Below, one piece after another: positions 763 through 38,660 of a stretch of 64,000 bases of DNA. Each line of letters starts with the position of its first letter. The first letter of the stretch is position 1. The stretch lies in assembly GCF_002744755.1 (NCBI RefSeq), contig NZ_KZ319287.1, forward strand, positions 310,001 to 374,000. Reading direction: 5' to 3'. The notes below the pieces were generated by a model that was not told the DNA's origin, searched no databases, and worked only from the letters and a program-made list of their open reading frames with translations. The stretch comes from Leeuwenhoekiella nanhaiensis. Its GTDB lineage: Bacteria > Bacteroidota > Bacteroidia > Flavobacteriales > Flavobacteriaceae. The translations under genes and the position numbers were made by a program.

Positions 763-1257
763 ATGCCTAATTTAAAGAGTCTAAAATCTAACTATATGGG
801 AATCAAGAGTTTTATGGGCAAGCGGTCTAAAGCCGTCGCCGAGGAAGTAAACATTAAAGTGTCAGACTATATGACCACCAAACTGATCACCTTTACACCA
901 GACCAGTCGATTATGGATGTGATGCAGAAGCTGATCAAACACCGCATCTCCGGTGCGCCCGTGGTCAATGAGAATTATGAACTGCTGGGCGTGATCTCAG
1001 AAGGGGATTGTATTAAGCATATTTCAGACAGCCGATATCACAATCTGCCTATGGACAATGCCACCGTGGGTCAAAATATGGCGATTGATGTAGAAACCAT
1101 AGATGGAAATATGAATGTTTTTGACGCCGCCCGTTTTTTTATAGAGCGAAAGCACCGGCGTTTTCCAATCGTGGAGAACGGTAAACTGGTAGGTCAAATC
1201 AGCCAGATGGATGTGATTAAAGCCGCCTTAAAACTGAAAGGAAACACGTGGAAATAA
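763..1257 (+). CDS. CBS domain pair protein
   Basis: A 164-residue cytoplasmic protein made almost entirely of two CBS motifs, about residues 32-88 (VSDYMTTKLITFTPDQSI start, GAPVVNENYELLGVISEGD core) and 103-158 (RRFPIVENGKLVGQIS core). Paired CBS motifs form a Bateman module that binds adenine nucleotides or SAM and usually acts as an energy sensor. No catalytic or transporter domain is fused, so the partner is unknown. It is a single-gene unit: the upstream M28 gene is divergent and a strong hairpin terminator follows 25 bases after the stop. The first 30 residues are basic and not part of the CBS fold. Confidence 0.9.
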   Translation: MPNLKSLKSNYMGIKSFMGKRSKAVAEEVNIKVSDYMTTKLITFTPDQSIMDVMQKLIKHRISGAPVVNENYELLGVISEGDCIKHISDSRYHNLPMDNATVGQNMAIDVETIDGNMNVFDAARFFIERKHRRFPIVENGKLVGQISQMDVIKAALKLKGNTWK

Positions 1258-1281
1258 CTAAAACTACAACAGGAAACAGAT

Positions 1282-1310
1282 AAGCGATTGGGCGGCCAAT
1301 CGCTTTTTTT
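1282..1310 (+). terminator. Rho-independent terminator of the CBS gene
   Basis: A perfect 10-bp stem (AAGCGATTGG at 1282-1291 with CCAATCGCTT at 1296-1305) and a 4-base loop run into seven T residues. It closes the CBS-protein transcript. Confidence 0.85.
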
Positions 1311-1401
1311 GGTTTTAGGGAAAGCTATTTTTTAAAGAGTAATTTGCTTTGGTAGAATTTGATAAGTTTGAAAATTTATTAAACTTACCGGAAAGCTTTA
1401 T

Positions 1402-2163
1402 TTAAATCACCTTCCTTACCCCAATAAAAACAGGAATTAAAAACGTCATTACCAAAAATACCGGGATTACAAATCCCTCCAATCCCGTGGCCAGCAAAAT
1501 ACTGATCAGCAGCAGTTGAAACCCTAAACCAAATACAGACACCAGGGTCATAAACCAGCCGGGCAGTTTACTGCTTTTTACCGCACTTGGATCAAGCCTG
1601 TAAATGATTTTATCAAAACTGCTATAGAGCAGGGTGTAGAGAAAATACATCGCATTTACCGCGACCTGACTCTCGCCGGCAAGGGCAAGCGGTCTGGAGT
1701 CTTCAAAAATACGACTGGTTGTATCCCCGTTATGGCGGTTACGTAAAATCACATAATAATAATTGTAGAGGGTGCCTTGCAGTTGCAAGCCTATAAATGC
1801 CAGAAAAGCTAACCAAAGAGGTGTTTCGGTGATAAGCGCAAGTGTGGTGAGCAGGACAAAATTGAGTACAATGTCTGCCACCGAATCGTAATAGCGGCCG
1901 GTATACGAGGGCGTGTTTTTAAGACGTGCAAGTTCGCCATCAGACGCGTCGAGTATCGATTTTAAAATGAGTAACAATGCCGCGCTTAGGTAATACCCGT
2001 AGCTGATGCAAATCACTGCAGCCAGCCCCGCAACTATAAATGCGGTAGTCAGATGAATGGGAGTACAGGAGGTTTCTTTAAAACGTTCGGCTATAGACCG
2101 GCCGGCCGGTCTTCCGTAATCGGAAAGATCTGTAAAGGCGTATTTAGGAGGAAGTTTAGACAT
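1402..2163 (-). CDS. CDP-alcohol phosphatidyltransferase family membrane protein
   Basis: The 253-residue protein carries the complete CDP-alcohol phosphotransferase signature D-x2-D-G-x2-A-R-x8-G-x3-D-x3-D: D72, D75, G76, A79, R80, G89, D93 and D97. These acidic residues bind the metal and CDP-diacylglycerol (or another CDP-alcohol) in this integral membrane family. About six hydrophobic segments surround the motif. The acceptor alcohol (glycerol phosphate, inositol, serine or other) cannot be read from the motif, and the length is somewhat above the 180-220 residues of PgsA. It overlaps the upstream DUF4375 gene by 8 bases, so the two are probably co-transcribed and translationally coupled. 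Confidence 0.88.
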   Translation of the reverse strand: MSKLPPKYAFTDLSDYGRPAGRSIAERFKETSCTPIHLTTAFIVAGLAAVICISYGYYLSAALLLILKSILDASDGELARLKNTPSYTGRYYDSVADIVLNFVLLTTLALITETPLWLAFLAFIGLQLQGTLYNYYYVILRNRHNGDTTSRIFEDSRPLALAGESQVAVNAMYFLYTLLYSSFDKIIYRLDPSAVKSSKLPGWFMTLVSVFGLGFQLLLISILLATGLEGFVIPVFLVMTFLIPVFIGVRKVI

Positions 2164-2644
2164 CGCCCTGCGTATTGGAAAGCGGCATAAACTGCTCCTG
2201 ATTCTTCCGGATGTAGGTCGCCAATAAATCGGCTACGGGCTCTCCACTTTCAAATAGTTGGTTAAATAGACTTTCCCAGTGTTTGCGGGTGCTTTCGTGC
2301 AAACCTTTGATAATTGAAAGACGTTCGGCCTTGTTTTTCGGTACCTTTTTATCCGGAAAAACACTCATAGCTTGTTCGAGCAAGCGTACGGTTTTATAAG
2401 CTTTGATGTTGGAATAGGCCCCAATAATCTCGTGTGTAAATTGCCCGGAATTCAAAAAAAAGGACTCCAAACTGCCGGTATTTAAGGCAGCTTCAAAAAC
2501 GTCGAGATAGATAAAGGTTTGTTCTGCCGGGTTGAGGTGTTCAAACTGATCGCGTTGTTTGATTTTTGGAGTGATGATTTCGCCAACGGCCAGAATAAGC
2601 GCCTGATTGTCTTCAAGCGAAAAAACAGAATCGGGATTATGCAT
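2156..2644 (-). CDS. DMP19/DUF4375 domain protein
   Basis: A 162-residue soluble protein. The middle section (about residues 45-115: FIYLDVFEAALNTGSLESF, LNSGQFTHE, KTVRLLEQAM) matches the pattern I know for the DMP19/DUF4375 family, small helical proteins with an FxNSG-type turn and no assigned enzymatic role. It is the first gene of a two-gene unit with the CDP-alcohol phosphatidyltransferase (8-base overlap). A TATCTTTG -7-like box lies at 2712-2719 on the minus strand, about 70 bases upstream of the start. The function is unknown. Confidence 0.72.
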   Translation of the reverse strand: MHNPDSVFSLEDNQALILAVGEIITPKIKQRDQFEHLNPAEQTFIYLDVFEAALNTGSLESFFLNSGQFTHEIIGAYSNIKAYKTVRLLEQAMSVFPDKKVPKNKAERLSIIKGLHESTRKHWESLFNQLFESGEPVADLLATYIRKNQEQFMPLSNTQGDV

Positions 2645-2754
2645 GCAACTAAGAACTAAACCTTTTAAGAAAGGTTTTTGAGCTCCAAACTACACCGGTG
2701 CTCTTCTGCTGCAAAGATAGGTTATAAAAGTGCAACACCGTATCTTTTAATTAC

Positions 2755-4644
2755 CTAGCGCTTGAGTGTAAAATGCCCAATAACAACCTGATCATTATCA
2801 AATAGAGCACGATACCAGTAATCATCAGAAGGTAAATTTTTTCCGTTATACGTACCGTTCCAGCTTTGTCCTTTCTCAATAGATTTAAGCAGTTTTCCAA
2901 AGCGATTATAAATATAAATGGTATCAATAGGGTTTTCGTTAGAAGAAACTGGAGACCATAAATCGTTGTATCCATCCCCATTTGGAGTAAAAAAATCAGG
3001 AAAAACAGATTGATCAAGTCTTTCCTCATCCCTGTCAGGATTTTCTTCTTCTTCCGGTAGATTTGCATCGCAATTTTCCAAGAGACCTACCTGAACTATT
3101 TCTTCCGTAAAACATGTGCCTGTTTGGTAAACCTTTACACGATAAACACCCAGGTTTTCATCATTAAGCTTTGATATTATGGGATTTTGTAATGTACTTG
3201 AAAAACCATTTGGACCATCCCATTCATATCGTACGCCATCAGATGCATTTAACTCAATATTAGAATCAGGACATTCAAAAAGTGAAATTATTCTGTTGTT
3301 TTCAAGGGTATCAAAGTCATCAGAAATTGCTGATTTTATAATCCACCAATCTCTACTGTAATTATCTTCTGTTTTATCTCCAGATTGACCTGAACCAGAC
3401 CAGCCTACTTGCACATAATTACCATCTGTATCTTGAATTGCGGCCATATTGCGGTCAAGACCATTACCTCCATAACGCTTATCTTTAATAAAATCACCGT
3501 TTTGATCAAGAATCGCCAGCCAATAGTCAGAATCGCCACGAGGTAATTCACTCACGTATCCTACAGGTTGTGAATACGAATCTCCACTTACAACAATATT
3601 ACCCTTTGAATTTTCCAATATAGATCTTGGCTCATCTGTACTGTCACCACCCAAGGTCTTATCCCAAATTATTGTTCCGTCAGGTTCAAATTTTAAAATC
3701 CAGAAGTCAATAGAATTACAGATGGGAGACTCAGACTTATCAAACCCTATTTGTGACAATGATGAGCCTGCAATAACAAAGTTTCCATCAGAGGTTTGAA
3801 TTATATCTGCGCTATAATCGCCATTATCCCCACCATATATCTCCTCCCAAATAATATCACCGTTTGAATTGATTTTAATTACCCAAAAATCTGCTGTGCC
3901 GGAGGGACTGATCGCATCTTCTGATTTATCCGCTGAAGAAGGAGAGTTTGAACTTCCTGCAATTATAAAATTAGAATCTCCTGCTTCAATTATTTTTGAA
4001 GATAAATCTATACCACTACCACCCAAAGTTTTTTGCCAAATTTCATTACCGTCAAAATCTAACATTACAAGCCAAATATCTGAGTTGCCTTTTAGCTCGG
4101 CTGTTTTATTTCCTGAAACAGGACTGTCAGATTCACCAAGAATCAGGTAGCCTTCAGAGGTTACTACTGCATTTTTAGGTTCATCTCTACCGGTTCCACC
4201 AAAGGTTTTGTCCCATACAATATTACGATCGGCATCTAATTTAATTATCCAATAGTCTCCATTACCTCCATAATATGGAGCTGTTTTATCACCAGAAATG
4301 CGAGACCAGGAATCACAAATAAGTAAATAACCTCCATCGTCTGTTTCAATTACATCATGCACATATTCAATAAAGTCACTTCCAATGGTTTTCTGCCAAA
4401 TAATATCACCATTTGTTTTATCCAGGGATACGAGCCACAAATCAGAAGATCCATTATTTGACCCTGTCACATCACCACTTGAATTATAGGTATACCCGGC
4501 CAGAAGATAATCTCCATTTTTATCTTGTTTAATAAAGCTGCACCAGTCGTTTTCAGATCCTCCCAATGTTTTTTGCCAGATAATTTCCTGAGCAAAAAAG
4601 TTATGGGTAAAGCAGAGAAGAATTATGAGTATTAGTTTATTCAA
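2755..4644 (-). CDS. Secreted T9SS type B substrate with seven propeller-like repeats
   Basis: A 629-residue exported protein. Residues 1-19 form a signal peptide ending in FFAQ. Residues about 22-440 hold seven copies of a roughly 55-65 residue repeat, each opening with a W-x-K-T-x-GG-type strand (IIWQKTLGGSENDW, IVWDKTFGGTGRDE, EIWQKTLGGSGIDL, IIWDKTLGGDSTDE and weaker copies) followed by a GNYLLAG or DGGYLL strand; seven copies suggest a beta-propeller. An Ig/PKD-like section follows at about 450-525. The last 85 residues (FTPNGDGYNDLW, IYNRFGKLL) are the gliding-motility-associated type B C-terminal sorting domain used by the type IX secretion system. It is therefore probably a cell-surface or released protein; the ligand is unknown. 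It stands alone. Confidence 0.9.
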   Translation of the reverse strand: MNKLILIILLCFTHNFFAQEIIWQKTLGGSENDWCSFIKQDKNGDYLLAGYTYNSSGDVTGSNNGSSDLWLVSLDKTNGDIIWQKTIGSDFIEYVHDVIETDDGGYLLICDSWSRISGDKTAPYYGGNGDYWIIKLDADRNIVWDKTFGGTGRDEPKNAVVTSEGYLILGESDSPVSGNKTAELKGNSDIWLVMLDFDGNEIWQKTLGGSGIDLSSKIIEAGDSNFIIAGSSNSPSSADKSEDAISPSGTADFWVIKINSNGDIIWEEIYGGDNGDYSADIIQTSDGNFVIAGSSLSQIGFDKSESPICNSIDFWILKFEPDGTIIWDKTLGGDSTDEPRSILENSKGNIVVSGDSYSQPVGYVSELPRGDSDYWLAILDQNGDFIKDKRYGGNGLDRNMAAIQDTDGNYVQVGWSGSGQSGDKTEDNYSRDWWIIKSAISDDFDTLENNRIISLFECPDSNIELNASDGVRYEWDGPNGFSSTLQNPIISKLNDENLGVYRVKVYQTGTCFTEEIVQVGLLENCDANLPEEEENPDRDEERLDQSVFPDFFTPNGDGYNDLWSPVSSNENPIDTIYIYNRFGKLLKSIEKGQSWNGTYNGKNLPSDDYWYRALFDNDQVVIGHFTLKR

Positions 4645-33941: not shown

Positions 33942-36410
33942 CTAAATCTTATCCAGATAGCGCAGCATGTTTTTAATGCGATCTTCCAGCTTCTCACTGC
34001 TCAGTTTTTCCCGAAGACGGTCTGTAATAATAGGGAAGGAGAAAGGAGTGGCTTTTTCGCAGGCTTTAACCACTATTTCCTGTTTTTCTATACGCTCCAG
34101 TGCCAGGCGCAAGCGGACTTCTTCGAGCTGATGTTCAAAAGTCTCCCGGTATGCCTGCTGAAAAAGTAAATTTTCGGGTTCGTAATCTCTGAACACTTCA
34201 AACAACAACTGACTGTTGCTTTGCAGATGTTTGTTTTTGACGATTTTCCCCGGAAAACCGGTAAATACCATCCCGCTGATGACCGCAATATCACGGAATT
34301 TCCGCCGGGCCATTTCGGTGCTGTTCAGGCTTTTTTGAAGGTCTTCTACTAAAAAACGAGCCGTAAATAAGTCGTTGTCGAGCACCTGCTGCATATCGAT
34401 TTTTTGGTCTGAAAGGATTTCAAAACCGTAATCATTAAATGCGATGCTGAAGGTTATGGGCGAAAGTAAACTGATGCGGTAGGCCAGTAAACTTCCTAAA
34501 GCCTCGTGTACAAAGCGGCCTTCAAAGGGATAAAATATATGGTGAAAACCCTCCCGGCTTTTGAAAGTTTCAATTAAAAACTGATCGTTATTGGGAACAA
34601 TTGATTCCAAGCGCTGCCGGTCGAAGATATCTTTTAACGCCTGAAGCTCCCGGGTTTGTTGTTCAAAAGGCAAATTTGCCGAATATAATTCTTCGCGCAG
34701 CAACTCGCTCATTTGTGCCGAAAGCGTCAACCGACCGCCCATCCAACTCACCACTTTTGCCTGCTTTTTGGTTTTAGCCTTTTTCACCAAAACCTGCATG
34801 CCTTTGATGCGATACAGCTCCAGGTTTTTACCGGCAAACGTAAAGACATCACCAGGCGAGAGTTTAGAGATAAACCATTCTTCAACGGTGCCAATGTAGC
34901 CGCCTTTTAAATATTTGACCTGCAGGGCGGCATCGCCTACAATGGTACCGATCTGTAACCGATGGCGCATCGCGACGGCTTTGCTGTGCACTTTAAACCT
35001 GCCGTCCTCTTCAATTTCAATCTTTTTATACTCGTCGTAGGCCTGTAGCGACTGACTGCCTTTGGTGATAAAATTCAGAATCCATCGCCATTGCTCTTCG
35101 CTCATCGCCTGAAAGCAGAAAGTTTGTTTGACTTCCTTCCAGATTTCTGCCGGGTAAAAACCGTCTGCGACTGCAAGCGTGGTTAAATATTGAATCAACA
35201 CATCAAAACTCAATAAATAGGGAATACGGTCTTCAACCACCTGATTGATCGCTGCCTTCCCCAGCGCCGAAGCTTCTATGAGTTCAATCGCGTGCGTAGG
35301 TAAAAAGTAGATTACACTTTCTTTCCCGGGTTGATGCCCGCTGCGACCGGCACGTTGTAAAAAACGGGCAACGCCTTTAGGACCACCAATTTGAATGATA
35401 CTTTCTACCGGAGCAAAATCAACGCCCAGATCGAGACTTGAGGTGCAAATCACGGCTTTCAGGCTTTCGTTTCTGATGGCCTGTTCAACCCAGAGCCGGG
35501 TTTCTTTGTTGATGCTGCCATGATGCATAGCGAGTTCGCCGGCATACTCCGGGTGCTTGTACATCATTTTCTGAAACCAAAGTTCGCACTGCGCCCGTGT
35601 ATTGGTAAACAAAAGTGTGGTTTTGCTGTTGTTGATGATAGGTACGACTTCTTCCAACAGGTGCAATCCCATATGTCCGCGCCATGGAAATTTCTCCATA
35701 GTTTCGGGGATTATGCTTTCAACCTTGTAGGTTTTTCCCAGATTGGCTTTGACTAAAACCGAATTTTTAAAGGCTTTAGAATCAGGTCCCAAAAGGACCT
35801 CGCGTGCCTGATCGAGATTACCTATGGTTGCTGAAATTCCCCAGATACGCAGTTTTGGGGCAATAGCTTTAAGCCGGGAGAGTCCAAGTTCGGTTTGTAC
35901 CCCACGTTTGCTGCCCAGCAGTTCGTGCCATTCGTCAATTACGATAGCCGTACAATTCTTAAAAACCTTCTTATAGCCTTTGCTCGTCAGCAAAAGCTGA
36001 AGGCTCTCTGGAGTAGTTATGAGCAAGTCGGGCATTTTGCGTTTTTGCTTTGCCCGTTCCGTCTGAGGCGTGTCACCGGTTCGTATGCCTACCGTTAGTT
36101 GGGTTTCCAAACCATCTGCAAAACGCGCTGCCGCCTGCGCAATTTCCACCGAAAGTGCCCGCAAAGGCGTAATCCAAATTGCTTTAAGTCCCGGTTTATG
36201 TTTGGTTTTATAATCAGGATTGTTTTTGATGTAATCCAAAACAAATGCTACCCAAAGGGCGTAGGTTTTACCGCTTCCTGTAGGCGCGTTAAGCAGACCA
36301 TTTTTACCTTCCAAAAACGCTCCCCAGGTCTCTTCCTGAAACGCAAAGGGTTTCCATCCCTGATTTTTAAACCAGGATTGCGCGAGTTTATGGAGTTGGT
36401 TTTTTGTCAT
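33942..36410 (-). CDS. Ligase-associated DNA damage response DEXH-box helicase
   Basis: An 822-residue Lhr-core-type superfamily 2 helicase: Walker A NAPTGSGKTYALW, DEWH motif II in IVIDEWHELLGSKRG, SAT motif GISATIGN, and motif VI FLQRAGRSGHQPG. The winged-helix and Lhr-specific region follow after about residue 430. The size and context (ligase, MBL exonuclease and PdeM on the same strand) make it the helicase of the ligase-associated set, thought to remodel RNA:DNA or damaged DNA for the ligase and nucleases. Its start is 122 bases downstream of the DUF559 gene, which separates it from the ligase. Confidence 0.93.
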   Translation of the reverse strand: MTKNQLHKLAQSWFKNQGWKPFAFQEETWGAFLEGKNGLLNAPTGSGKTYALWVAFVLDYIKNNPDYKTKHKPGLKAIWITPLRALSVEIAQAAARFADGLETQLTVGIRTGDTPQTERAKQKRKMPDLLITTPESLQLLLTSKGYKKVFKNCTAIVIDEWHELLGSKRGVQTELGLSRLKAIAPKLRIWGISATIGNLDQAREVLLGPDSKAFKNSVLVKANLGKTYKVESIIPETMEKFPWRGHMGLHLLEEVVPIINNSKTTLLFTNTRAQCELWFQKMMYKHPEYAGELAMHHGSINKETRLWVEQAIRNESLKAVICTSSLDLGVDFAPVESIIQIGGPKGVARFLQRAGRSGHQPGKESVIYFLPTHAIELIEASALGKAAINQVVEDRIPYLLSFDVLIQYLTTLAVADGFYPAEIWKEVKQTFCFQAMSEEQWRWILNFITKGSQSLQAYDEYKKIEIEEDGRFKVHSKAVAMRHRLQIGTIVGDAALQVKYLKGGYIGTVEEWFISKLSPGDVFTFAGKNLELYRIKGMQVLVKKAKTKKQAKVVSWMGGRLTLSAQMSELLREELYSANLPFEQQTRELQALKDIFDRQRLESIVPNNDQFLIETFKSREGFHHIFYPFEGRFVHEALGSLLAYRISLLSPITFSIAFNDYGFEILSDQKIDMQQVLDNDLFTARFLVEDLQKSLNSTEMARRKFRDIAVISGMVFTGFPGKIVKNKHLQSNSQLLFEVFRDYEPENLLFQQAYRETFEHQLEEVRLRLALERIEKQEIVVKACEKATPFSFPIITDRLREKLSSEKLEDRIKNMLRYLDKI

Positions 36411-36432: not shown

Positions 36433-36534
36433 TTTTGCCTTCGGCAAAACCACCTTCCCTTATCAAGGGAAGGAGCTTAAAAGCTCCCCTCTTAGTATAG
36501 GAGGGGTGTCCCGATTTTCGGGACGGGGTGGTTT
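36433..36534. repeat. Left multi-hairpin element of the DUF559 module
   Basis: A compact array of perfect hairpins: TTTTGCC/GGCAAAA (36433-36449), CCTTCCCTT/AAGGGAAGG (36453-36473), GAGCTT/AAGCTC (36473-36486), CCCCTC/GAGGGG (36486-36506) and GTCCCGA/TCGGGAC (36508-36524). An outer 8-bp stem AAACCACC (36447-36454) with GGTGGTTT (36527-36534) encloses the inner hairpins. The stop codon of the DUF559 gene lies in the outer stem. Confidence 0.8.
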
Positions 36535-36898
36535 ACTCCTTTTTAAAATTATCTTCAATCTCATTCAATACACTGGGTAAAAAGTCAAACACCATTTTGT
36601 TTTCAAAACGTATGACGTTAAAGCCCAGTTCATTTAATTTTTCAGTTCTGTACGCATCATATTCTGCAACGTCCGGATTTTGATGATAATGACCGTCTAA
36701 CTCTACAATCAGTTTTTCTGAAGGACAGTAAAAGTCAACAATAAAGTAGGTGATGCTGTGTTGTCTTCTAAACTTTCTACCCGCAAGTTGAGATTTTTGT
36801 AAGTGTCTCCATAAAAAAGCTTCGGCAGGAGTTAGATGCGACCGCAAATACTTCCTTCTGCTCTCCAGTATTTTTAAGTTGTGTATTTGTTTTTTCAT
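36533..36898 (-). CDS. DUF559 domain endonuclease-like protein
   Basis: A 121-residue protein of the DUF559 group, a restriction-endonuclease-like fold related to the Vsr patch-repair nuclease. Key segments are LTPAEAFLWRHLQ, AGRKFRRQHSITYFIVDFYC and LIVELDGHYHQ (D55, E66, D68, H70) and the closing FNVIRFEN. The N-terminal ARxLRxxxTxAE-type opening is also typical. It interrupts the ligase-helicase interval of the DNA repair cluster and is bordered by related hairpin elements in inverted orientation (36433-36534 and 36914-36985). It has no obvious repair-cluster role and looks like an insertion. Confidence 0.9.
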   Translation of the reverse strand: MKKQIHNLKILESRRKYLRSHLTPAEAFLWRHLQKSQLAGRKFRRQHSITYFIVDFYCPSEKLIVELDGHYHQNPDVAEYDAYRTEKLNELGFNVIRFENKMVFDFLPSVLNEIEDNFKKE

Positions 36899-36913
36899 AA
36901 ACTAGCGGGATCA

Positions 36914-36985
36914 CGAACCACCTCTTTCTTTGCCTTCGCCAAATTCATTCTCCTCCTTAAAAAGGAGGAGAGCTTTTTAGAGCTT
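36914..36985. repeat. Right hairpin element of the DUF559 module
   Basis: Reads AACCACC, then a TTTGCCTTCGCCAAA stretch, then a perfect 9-bp hairpin CTCCTCCTT/AAGGAGGAG (36950-36970), then GAGCTTTTTAGAGCTTTT. This is the same order of parts (ACCACC, CTCC hairpin, GAGCTTTT) as the reverse complement of the left element, so the two form an inverted pair around the gene. Together with the rest of 36899-37049 it contains no gene. Confidence 0.7.
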
Positions 36986-37049: not shown

Positions 37050-38660
37050 TCAGCCGGCTCTGCCCGGCTTCGGAATCAATTGCTTAAGATCTTCTAAAGT
37101 GTTGGCATCTTCAATCTTTTTGTCTTTACGCCAGCGGAGCATACGCGGGAAACGGGTGGCGACACCGCTTTTGTGACGCTTGCTGAGGGCGATTCCCTCG
37201 AAGGCGATTTCAAAAACGTGATGCGGTGTCACGCTGCGCACGGGCCCAAAGCGTTCCAAAGTATTCTTCTTAATCCATGCATCCAGACTGCGAAACTCGG
37301 CGTCTGTTAGGCCGGAGTAGGCTTTGGCAAAAGTTACGAGTTCCTCTTTGTTGTCATCCCAAAGTCCAAAAGTATAATCGGTAAACAGATTGCTACGGCG
37401 GCCGTGACCGCGCATCGCATAGGTGAGCACCGCATCAATAGTGAGCGGGTCAACCTTCCATTTCCACCAGTCGCCTTTTTTACGACCTACCAGATACGGC
37501 GAATCTTTCCGCTTGAGCATCAAACCTTCAGACATCACCTCGCGGCTGCGTTCCCGTTCTGCGGCAGCTTCTTCCCAATTTGAAAACGCGATAGTTTCAG
37601 AAAGGTGTAGCGGTAACTCATCCGTCTTAACCTCAGTATATAATTTTTCTAATAGTTTCCGCCTTTCGGCGAAAGCCAGATCCCGAATATCCTTGCCTTC
37701 CCATTCCAGAATATCGTAGGCTTTGAGAATCACGGGTGTTTTTTTCAGTTGGGCTTTGGTGATATTTTTACGCCCGATGCGGGTTTGCAAATCGTTGAAA
37801 GTACCAATCATCCCTTTCTTAAACGGAAGGATTTCACCATCGAGCACCGTCCCGTTTGGGATAGCCTCCACGAAGGCTTCAAACTCCGGGTATTTATCGG
37901 TCACCAGTTCTTCACCTCGGCTCCAGACAAACAGCTCGTCTTCGCGAATGATGACCTGTGAGCGGATGCCGTCCCACTTATGCTCGGCAAACCATTCGTT
38001 GACATCGCCCAGATCTTCCGGAGTGTCTTCAATGGCATAAGCCAGATAAAAAGGATAGGGCTTGCTTAGGAAATCGGCTTTATTTTCTTCTAAAATGAGT
38101 GTTTGAAAACTGATGGTTTTGGGATCCCAATCGCCCATCAGTTTGTAGGCCAGCACGTCAACATCAATATCTGTAGCCTTTGCCAGCGCACGGGTCATCA
38201 ATTTTTGACTTACGCCAATGCGAAAACTACCGGTGATGAGTTTGCTGAACACAAAACGCTCGTAATAGTTAAGGCGCGTCCAGTTCTCATGCAGGTATTC
38301 ACGTTTTTCGTCTTCGGGCTTTTTTTTGAGGGCGATAATTTCTTCACAGAATTGCGTAAGGCTTTTATCGGTATGTTCTTCGGAAGCGGGAATAATCAGC
38401 GCAATGGTTTCTGCCAGATCGCCTACAATGTGATAGCTTTCTTCAAACAGCCACAAGGGAATCTGAGCCAGTTCGGTAGCCCAGGTTCTTAATAAGGTAG
38501 TATTGACCGGCCGAGGCGGACGGCGATGCGACAAAATCGCAATCGTCCAGACCTTGTCTTTGGGTGGCGCTTCGCGAAAGTATTGCGTAAGCGCATCAAC
38601 CTTGATGTTAGTCTTGTTTGTACTGTCAATTTTCCGAATAAGTTCTGCAAAGGCCCTCAT
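37050..38660 (-). CDS. ATP-dependent DNA ligase (ligase-associated repair cluster)
   Basis: A 536-residue ATP-dependent ligase. The adenylated lysine is K228 in AEHKWDGIRSQ; earlier residues form the ligase N-terminal domain (FSKLITGSFRIGVSQKLM), and DGEILPF, EGLMLKRKDSPYLVGRK and DWWKWK are motifs III to V. The C-terminal OB domain ends at about residue 530. It seals nicks with AMP chemistry and is the namesake of the ligase-associated damage response set. The MBL exonuclease gene lies 51 bases upstream on the same strand, so these two are probably co-transcribed. Confidence 0.94.
   Translation of the reverse strand: MRAFAELIRKIDSTNKTNIKVDALTQYFREAPPKDKVWTIAILSHRRPPRPVNTTLLRTWATELAQIPLWLFEESYHIVGDLAETIALIIPASEEHTDKSLTQFCEEIIALKKKPEDEKREYLHENWTRLNYYERFVFSKLITGSFRIGVSQKLMTRALAKATDIDVDVLAYKLMGDWDPKTISFQTLILEENKADFLSKPYPFYLAYAIEDTPEDLGDVNEWFAEHKWDGIRSQVIIREDELFVWSRGEELVTDKYPEFEAFVEAIPNGTVLDGEILPFKKGMIGTFNDLQTRIGRKNITKAQLKKTPVILKAYDILEWEGKDIRDLAFAERRKLLEKLYTEVKTDELPLHLSETIAFSNWEEAAAERERSREVMSEGLMLKRKDSPYLVGRKKGDWWKWKVDPLTIDAVLTYAMRGHGRRSNLFTDYTFGLWDDNKEELVTFAKAYSGLTDAEFRSLDAWIKKNTLERFGPVRSVTPHHVFEIAFEGIALSKRHKSGVATRFPRMLRWRKDKKIEDANTLEDLKQLIPKPGRAG

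Follow-up and report, generated by a model that had tools for sequence, protein, structure and literature searches.

Inverted palindromic modules around a DUF559 nuclease gene: a probable small mobile element in Leeuwenhoekiella and other bacteria

Among described systems, those that the locus analyzed here would by analogy work like are the RAYT/REPIN systems and homing genes. RAYTs are chromosomal, and EDxHD homing endonucleases typically lie within introns or inteins, although such a location is not required. To our knowledge, the Vsr/EDxHD-like fold is not used in known REP-type systems. A review of EDxHD homing endonucleases includes I-Bth0305I (PMC3943268), a cyanobacterial genome paper counts a DUF559 gene as a member of the EDxHD homing family (PMC9403480) and Di Nocera et al. 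(2013) describe CGTC-tagged palindromes without a dedicated transposase (PMC3733652). Among the matches listed by a literature search, no title or abstract linked DUF559 to palindromes; that search does not reach the bulk of subscription papers and bioRxiv preprints, in which the association may be described. Here we analyzed a 64,000-nucleotide stretch of the Leeuwenhoekiella nanhaiensis genome (hereafter the window; contig NZ_KZ319287.1, positions 310,001 to 374,000), together with related loci in other bacteria.

At 36533..36898 on the minus strand, the window carries a gene for a DUF559 (Vsr/EDxHD-fold) nuclease of 121 aa, assigned by Pfam (PF04480, E 6e-32, 110.2 bits against a cut-off of 20.6), an AlphaFold model and structure neighbours. 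As a sequence-only reading of the locus had noted, this gene separates a ligase gene from a helicase gene: its host context is a ligase-associated DEXH-box helicase (33942..36410, minus strand; TIGR04121) on one side and a cisplatin-damage-response ATP-dependent DNA ligase (37050..38660, minus strand; TIGR04120) on the other. The same reading had described two related elements in inverted orientation around the gene, and arms at 36476-36504 and 36952-36980 were indeed found to be 76% complementary; the left element also overlaps the DUF559 stop codon (TTA on the plus strand, 36533-36535), with which it shares two bases. The further description of the left element as four perfect hairpins within an 8-bp outer stem was right as to the four hairpins and the stem, but only three of the hairpins are perfect, that at 36486-36506 having one mismatch in 9 pairs.

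Hairpins were delimited by sequence and folding and the arms of the outer stem by sequence, without assignment to a strand. The outermost hairpin of the left element, TTTTGCC-TTC-GGCAAAA (36433..36449), lies just outside the outer stem, the left arm of which is AAACCACC (36447..36454). There follow the hairpin CCTTCCCTT-ATC-AAGGGAAGG, with a pyrimidine-rich 5' arm (36453..36473), the central hairpin GAGCTT-AA-AAGCTC (36473..36486), the mismatched hairpin CCCCTCTTA-GTA-TAGGAGGGG (36486..36506), the hairpin GTCCCGA-TTT-TCGGGAC (36508..36524) and the right arm of the stem, GGTGGTTT (36527..36534), which contributes the two bases shared with the stop codon. The left element is made of two inverted modules back to back, with the central hairpin as their centre of symmetry, and the right element (36914..36980) is a single inverted module, consisting of an AACCACC tail (36916-36922), a decayed inner hairpin and a perfect 10-bp hairpin, TCTCCTCCTT-AAA-AAGGAGGAGA (36949-36971). 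When folded as single-stranded DNA, the left element gave z = -6.1 on the plus and -5.4 on the minus strand, with none of 200 shuffles equally stable on either, and the right element gave a weaker signal (z = -1.9 and -2.4, with 8/200 and 2/200 shuffles equally stable). Nine hairpins in the 64-kb window passed a filter of stem at least 8, loop at most 8 and at least 4 GC; of the three among them whose 5' arm is pyrimidine-rich, two flank DUF559. The window genome (G000) contains four DUF559 matches; perfect hairpins lie near three of these on either side and near the fourth (L004) on a single side.

The AlphaFold model of the window protein (pLDDT 90.6) had as its nearest PDB folds in Foldseek 3hrl and 3r3p, the catalytic domain of I-Bth0305I (E 6e-5), with Vsr (1cw0) as a weaker neighbour (E 0.06, probability 0.99). 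The first of these, an endonuclease-like protein of Neisseria gonorrhoeae, is also a sequence relative (phmmer E 1.5e-19). A DUF559 gene of N. gonorrhoeae (L101), perhaps the gene of this solved structure, has similar repeat stretches on either side. Residues E25, D54, E65, D67 and H71 (alignment numbering, first Met omitted) were kept in 171-172 of 172 sequences, and the modelled protein combines a Vsr-like catalytic fold with the conserved acidic and histidine residues of EDxHD enzymes. Values of dN/dS were 0.04-0.11 in 10 of 11 pairs, in-frame copies included, and could not be computed for the eleventh (metH). The DUF559 nuclease is under strong purifying selection and seems to be maintained as a functional enzyme irrespective of what its host gene requires. 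A role in defence was rejected, PADLOC having given only weak matches in three DUF559 proteins (best E 6e-5). We also rejected phage or plasmid cargo: the window protein, used as query, had matches in 2 of 50,697 phage records and in 38 of 72,556 plasmid records, and some of these matching plasmid records are as large as chromosomes.

The association of DUF559 with hairpins was then quantified in two sets of loci: a family set of 92 (38 in frame with a host gene and 54 others, orthologues included), which leaves out eleven matches with E < 1e-20 plus further weaker ones, and an outside set of the best 80 of 532 confirmed loci, mostly Pseudomonadota, picked by likeness to an alphaproteobacterial query. 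Three weak loci with no tblastn match (L023, L024, L030) and two broken halves (L028, L029) were left out, and an intein-like locus (L229) was excluded from the side-enrichment counts, the residue and dN/dS analyses, the arm correlation and the CGTC counts. We counted hairpins with a pyrimidine-rich 5' arm, a stem of 8 or more, a loop of 8 or less and 4 or more GC that lay at most 200 bp from the end of DUF559 or of a control ORF; 4 DUF559 sides (5') and 5 (3') were dropped for short sequence. Across the family set and the best 80 of 532 outside loci, such hairpins were present at 106/168 5' sides and 95/167 3' sides of DUF559, whereas the other ORFs of these loci had them at 9/207 (5') and 15/243 (3') ends. 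Fisher tests gave p of about 1e-37 and 6e-31, values that are too small because many family loci are orthologues. Counted by locus, DUF559 genes of relatives are not rarely beside hairpins, which occurred at 59/92 family loci (21/38 in-frame and 38/54 other) and at 71/80 outside loci (best 80 of 532); the strict hairpin was absent within 200 bp from 17/38, 16/54 and 9/80, respectively. Hairpin density was 6.2/kb at 0-100 bp against at most 0.2/kb past 400 bp in 53 family loci, and 5.0/kb near against 0-0.4/kb far in the best 80 of 532 outside loci.

The hairpin copies, moreover, are alike in make-up: the 5' arm was rich in pyrimidines in 271 of 307 hairpins near DUF559 and rich in purines in 3, compared with 53 and 20 of 160 far from it, a polarity that is independent of which strand is read. 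Neither of the two outcomes that the sequence-only reading had named as contrary to its proposal was observed. Pyrimidine-arm hairpins stood on both sides of DUF559 in 81 of 184 loci, an inverted palindromic framing like that of RAYT/REPIN systems. Eight of 11 DUF559 loci from the plasmid collection (Sphingomonas, Azospirillum, Sinorhizobium, Methylobacterium, Deinococcus, Picosynechococcus and others) had a pyrimidine-arm hairpin, four of them on both sides. Judged from these sequences, hairpin framing of DUF559 is general and real beyond the window. That ordinary intrinsic terminators, or structures for mRNA stability at the ends of genes, account for the hairpins is most improbable; most of the hairpins do lie near gene ends and are GC-rich, but the ends of control ORFs rarely have them (the 9/207 and 15/243 above, on which the terminator reading was rejected), they occur also upstream of DUF559 and within in-frame fusions, and their arms have a polarity of 271 to 3.

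By eye, modules are built alike from Bacteroidota through to Pseudomonadota, with a pyrimidine-arm hairpin that is often joined by a second, short one, and with a tail, ..GGGGTGGTT in the window type and ..TTAGGGTGAGGGG in Pseudomonadota, that looks like a terminal inverted repeat. Two inverted modules can form one long hairpin, as in the Sinorhizobium locus L105 (z -10.3, 0/200 shuffles equally stable). Very similar multi-hairpin units were seen by eye as direct repeats on both sides at L026, L044, L048, L050 and L052, and at L213 a 605-bp DUF559 segment is present in two copies 1.4 kb apart with 96.7% identity. In the Sphingomonadaceae locus L098, DUF559 and a hairpin lie between the annotated sufB and sufC; L108, from the same family, appears alike, and L110 seems by eye to carry a second DUF559 copy directly behind.

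The 38 of 92 family loci in which DUF559 is in frame with a host gene comprise leuS (17), hemD (11), metH (4), recG (4), hisD (1) and a threonine-dehydratase-like gene (1), assigned by sequence reading; for one ORF per in-frame host gene, profiles matched both the host family and PF04480. DUF559 sits mid-protein in leuS, metH and recG (in the last between the DEQH and TAT motifs), at the front in hemD and the dehydratase-like gene and at the tail in hisD, and the hairpins of in-frame copies are translated, for example as LPPAPSQGGG or LPLGEDLGG. In 10 loci, including 5 in-frame ones, no Rfam family scored as high as its gathering threshold, and profiles matched no intein domain (E <= 1e-5) in any of 6 in-frame ORFs, on which grounds an intron or intein around the in-frame copies tested was rejected. 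Because the leuS query gave one match per genus genome, the interrupted LeuRS should be the sole LeuRS, and it is presumably functional. A separate observation concerns L229 (G137:C1:234800-238000), where an ORF at 1066-3201 on the minus strand has a partial DUF559-like domain inside intein-like sequence (..VNGVVVHNC..; PF14890, E 2.2e-6, below the cut-off), which fits this fold serving as a homing nuclease.

We compared the leuS and hemD sites and the ligase-helicase gap among 13 genomes of the genus. The leuS site was filled in 8 and empty in 5, and the hemD site was filled in 6 and without DUF559 in 7, among them G008, whose hemD frame is 249 aa and whose single DUF559 match lies elsewhere. 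The ligase-helicase gap was filled in 7 genomes, empty in 4 (G001, 13 bp; G005, 3 bp; G008, 13 bp; G010, 93 bp without hairpins) and occupied by hairpins only in G011 (203 bp, no DUF559), one genome having no ligase match. The ligase cluster is therefore uninterrupted in relatives without the element, a comparison that the sequence-only reading had proposed, in 4 of the 12 genus genomes with a ligase match. Sister genomes in the host tree differed: leuS and hemD are filled in G000 and empty in G006 (94.4% host DNA identity); both sites are likewise filled in G010 and empty in G002, with the reverse at the ligase-helicase gap; and G003 and G005 differ at that gap. A target-site duplication was not established, and in hemD and leuS a short piece of the empty site appears to have been replaced by the insertion.

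Two features of empty sites were also recorded. The empty leuS loop of G006, G005 and G009 (L061, L062, L063) has a tandem 7-mer (AATTCAG-like repeats, peptide KIQNSEF), which is absent from the empty leuS of G003 and G002 and could be a scar or else a small repeat that arose independently. At the empty hemD sites of G006 and G004 (L073, L076), CCTCATCCTC resembles the tail of the hemD element, CTCATCCT, a likeness that may reflect target preference or an excision footprint.

In a tree of the nuclease (66 rows, L051 left out), all 11 hemD copies formed one clade (99/99) and 8 ligase-helicase copies sat in a clade of 9 with one intergenic copy (97/84), while the leuS, metH and hisD copies (20 rows) grouped together unsupported (91/0), metH alone forming a supported clade (100/98). 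The leuS site holds three element types with 55-65% DNA identity. There, element identity between G000 and G001 was 90.4% against 80.4% for the host and between G000 and G008 90.4% against 81.9%, with 81.5% against 81.8% for G000 and G004. Element identity exceeded that of the host by more than 3 points in 4/28 leuS, 0/15 hemD and 1/21 ligase-helicase pairs and, with an excess in so few pairs, hemD and the ligase-helicase gap look mainly vertical or old. The relatedness of nucleases correlated with the similarity of their hairpin arms (r 0.26 over all loci, p 0.0005 by permutation; 0.20 in the family; r 0.14, p 0.009 in the best 80 of 532 outside loci), a weak correlation that may partly come from kinship, base composition or unfiltered orthologues, since orthology was judged by blastn only and orthologous pairs may remain.

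The leuS flanks of G000 matched those of its empty sister G006 at 54-59/60 in every full 60-bp window up to the site, whereas in the windows next to the site G001 and G008 matched G000 at 47-52/60; in one right-flank window, 120-180 bp off, G001 (54) and G008 (55) equalled G006 (54). In 60-bp windows against G006, G001, G008 and G004 there was no clear co-converted flank at this site, at a resolution at which a tract well under 60 bp may go unseen. The leuS unit of G000 thus seems to have moved between species alone, without its flanks, and transposition with a preferred target would fit better than homing with a long repair tract; the pattern may instead reflect loss in G006 and uneven rates. 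As far as sequence comparison goes, the suggestion that the element is able to move is supported by filled and empty sister genomes and by an element identity above host identity at leuS.

These data also bear on classical homing, in which DUF559, as a homing endonuclease either standing alone or embedded, would cut the empty allele and be copied by homologous repair, with the hairpins as expression or RNA-stability elements or hitchhikers. The nearness of the fold to an EDxHD homing endonuclease, the placement of a DUF559 gene in that family in the cyanobacterial paper (PMC9403480), the conserved sites, the hemD-only clade and the DUF559-like domain within the weak intein match of L229 all speak for homing, which we nevertheless consider unlikely in view of the lack of a clear co-converted flank beside the G000 leuS element, the hairpins at 71/80 outside loci (best 80 of 532), which homing does not require, and the hairpins without a gene in G011. 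Less probable again, and by our estimate very unlikely, is a vertically inherited repair gene (VSP-like mismatch repair) that was randomly lost and around which repeats piled up by chance. In its favour, the window copy stands in a repair cluster, little excess identity is seen in the hemD and ligase-helicase pairs, and VsrA, a DUF559 protein of Caulobacter, has been linked with cytosine methylation and DNA damage (PMC12907096); but the hosts include leuS, hemD, metH, hisD, recG and a suf operon, three types of only 55-65% DNA identity share one leuS site, and the element exceeds host identity in G000-G001 and G000-G008.

We surveyed a hairpin pattern in 149 family genomes. At least 3 matches were found in 13/51 genomes with strong DUF559 (E < 1e-20) against 0/98 without, 21 of the 98 having weak DUF559 matches; the other 38 of the 51 positive genomes had fewer than 3. 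G108 had 16 pattern matches and one strong DUF559 match. Hairpin-only copies, such as RAYT/REPIN systems have, were thus seen in G108, besides the ligase-helicase gap of G011 and a repeat of E. coli described below. A reading of the hairpins as REPs that belong to a RAYT (HUH) transposase, with DUF559 as a passenger, is extremely unlikely: the window genome does have one strong Y1_Tnp gene (L188), but the hairpins that flank it differ in sequence, and Y1_Tnp was above cut-off in 6/13 genus genomes as against 13/13 for DUF559, so RAYT-driven palindromes were rejected for the genus of the window. Nor is the enzyme itself an HUH Y1 transposase (PF01797), as Pfam finds DUF559 and the fold is Vsr/EDxHD-like. 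The module is no RAYT, and those copies that were tested are neither inteins nor introns.

The strict form CGTC-stem-loop-stem-CCA was found at 17 places in 101,803 bp near DUF559 against 3 in 456,823 bp far from it. It was present at 8/172 DUF559 loci; the idea of DUF559 as the partner of CGTC-REPs is unsupported as a general rule and, because of this low count, stands as a lead. At L055 (G108), a hairpin, GATTCCCGCCTTCGCGGGAATGACA, adjoins DUF559 elements at ~1276-1300 of the reverse complement of the locus; we take it to be similar to the CGTC-type REP. In E. coli, the DUF559 member ycjD was present in 3365/5426 genomes, with the order sapF-ycjD-fabI in DH5alpha (L251), and the palindromic repeat downstream of it recurs at a median of 4 places per genome, ycjD's own counted. 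We rejected ycjD as a clean insertion polymorphism, since the one ycjD-lacking strain examined (L250) has an efflux operon at the site; an efflux operon at this site in E. coli without ycjD is likewise reported in a 2026 paper (PMC12817139).

Taken together, our analyses suggest that the Vsr/EDxHD-fold DUF559 nuclease gene and the inverted palindromic modules that frame it are probably a small mobile element. The sequence-only reading had proposed a palindrome-nuclease module analogous to RAYT/REP on a Vsr/DUF559 fold, which is probably correct, the likeness being functional only, with a fold that is not HUH. In such an element, cutting, copying and target choice would fall to DUF559: the nuclease would bind its own hairpins, probably when these are single-stranded during replication or repair, and would nick or cut a target, into which repair would then copy the unit. 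A preference for few sites would hold lineages at the same site, and the nuclease may act in trans to move hairpin-only copies, much as RAYTs presumably do for REPINs. Whether DUF559 and pyrimidine-arm palindromes form a bacteria-wide mobile class, in which a nuclease of the Vsr type, and not an HUH, DDE or recombinase enzyme, spreads itself and hairpin-only copies and lives in essential genes as a translated, unspliced domain, we regard as evenly balanced. If true, a widespread gene of 'unknown function' would become a mobile-element enzyme and orphan palindromic repeats would gain a testable partner, and a nuclease could settle without splicing within what is apparently the only leuS gene. 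DUF559 may also provide the enzyme that is lacking in certain families of palindromic repeats reported to have no transposase. Since laboratory strains of E. coli (DH5alpha) carry ycjD, the idea is directly testable.

Compared with known systems, the element has in the Vsr very-short-patch repair endonuclease a weaker fold neighbour (1cw0), from which it differs in its patchy, element-like distribution and in that no methyltransferase gene was seen among the DUF559 neighbours looked at, unsystematically. Like the Rickettsia palindromic elements, it places palindromic DNA in frame within protein genes; these are, however, described as palindromic repeats (PMC3733652), whereas DUF559 units carry a whole nuclease domain. 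With the CGTC-tagged REPs, said in that same paper (PMC3733652) to lack a dedicated transposase, it shares intragenic copies and, in some inner hairpins, the form CGTC-stem-loop-stem-(T)CCA, although strictly so in only 8/172 loci. The EDxHD homing endonucleases resemble it in fold (3r3p), near-invariant acidic and histidine residues, conserved insertion sites and patchy presence, but the in-frame DUF559 copies tested are without intron or intein, DUF559 is framed by palindromes and the one leuS case tested is without a clear co-converted flank. As in RAYT/REPIN systems, finally, a nuclease gene lies between inverted palindromes, hairpin-only copies occur and DUF559 is rare in plasmid and phage collections, whereas the fold is Vsr/EDxHD-like instead of HUH and the hairpins have a signature of their own, a pyrimidine-rich 5' arm.
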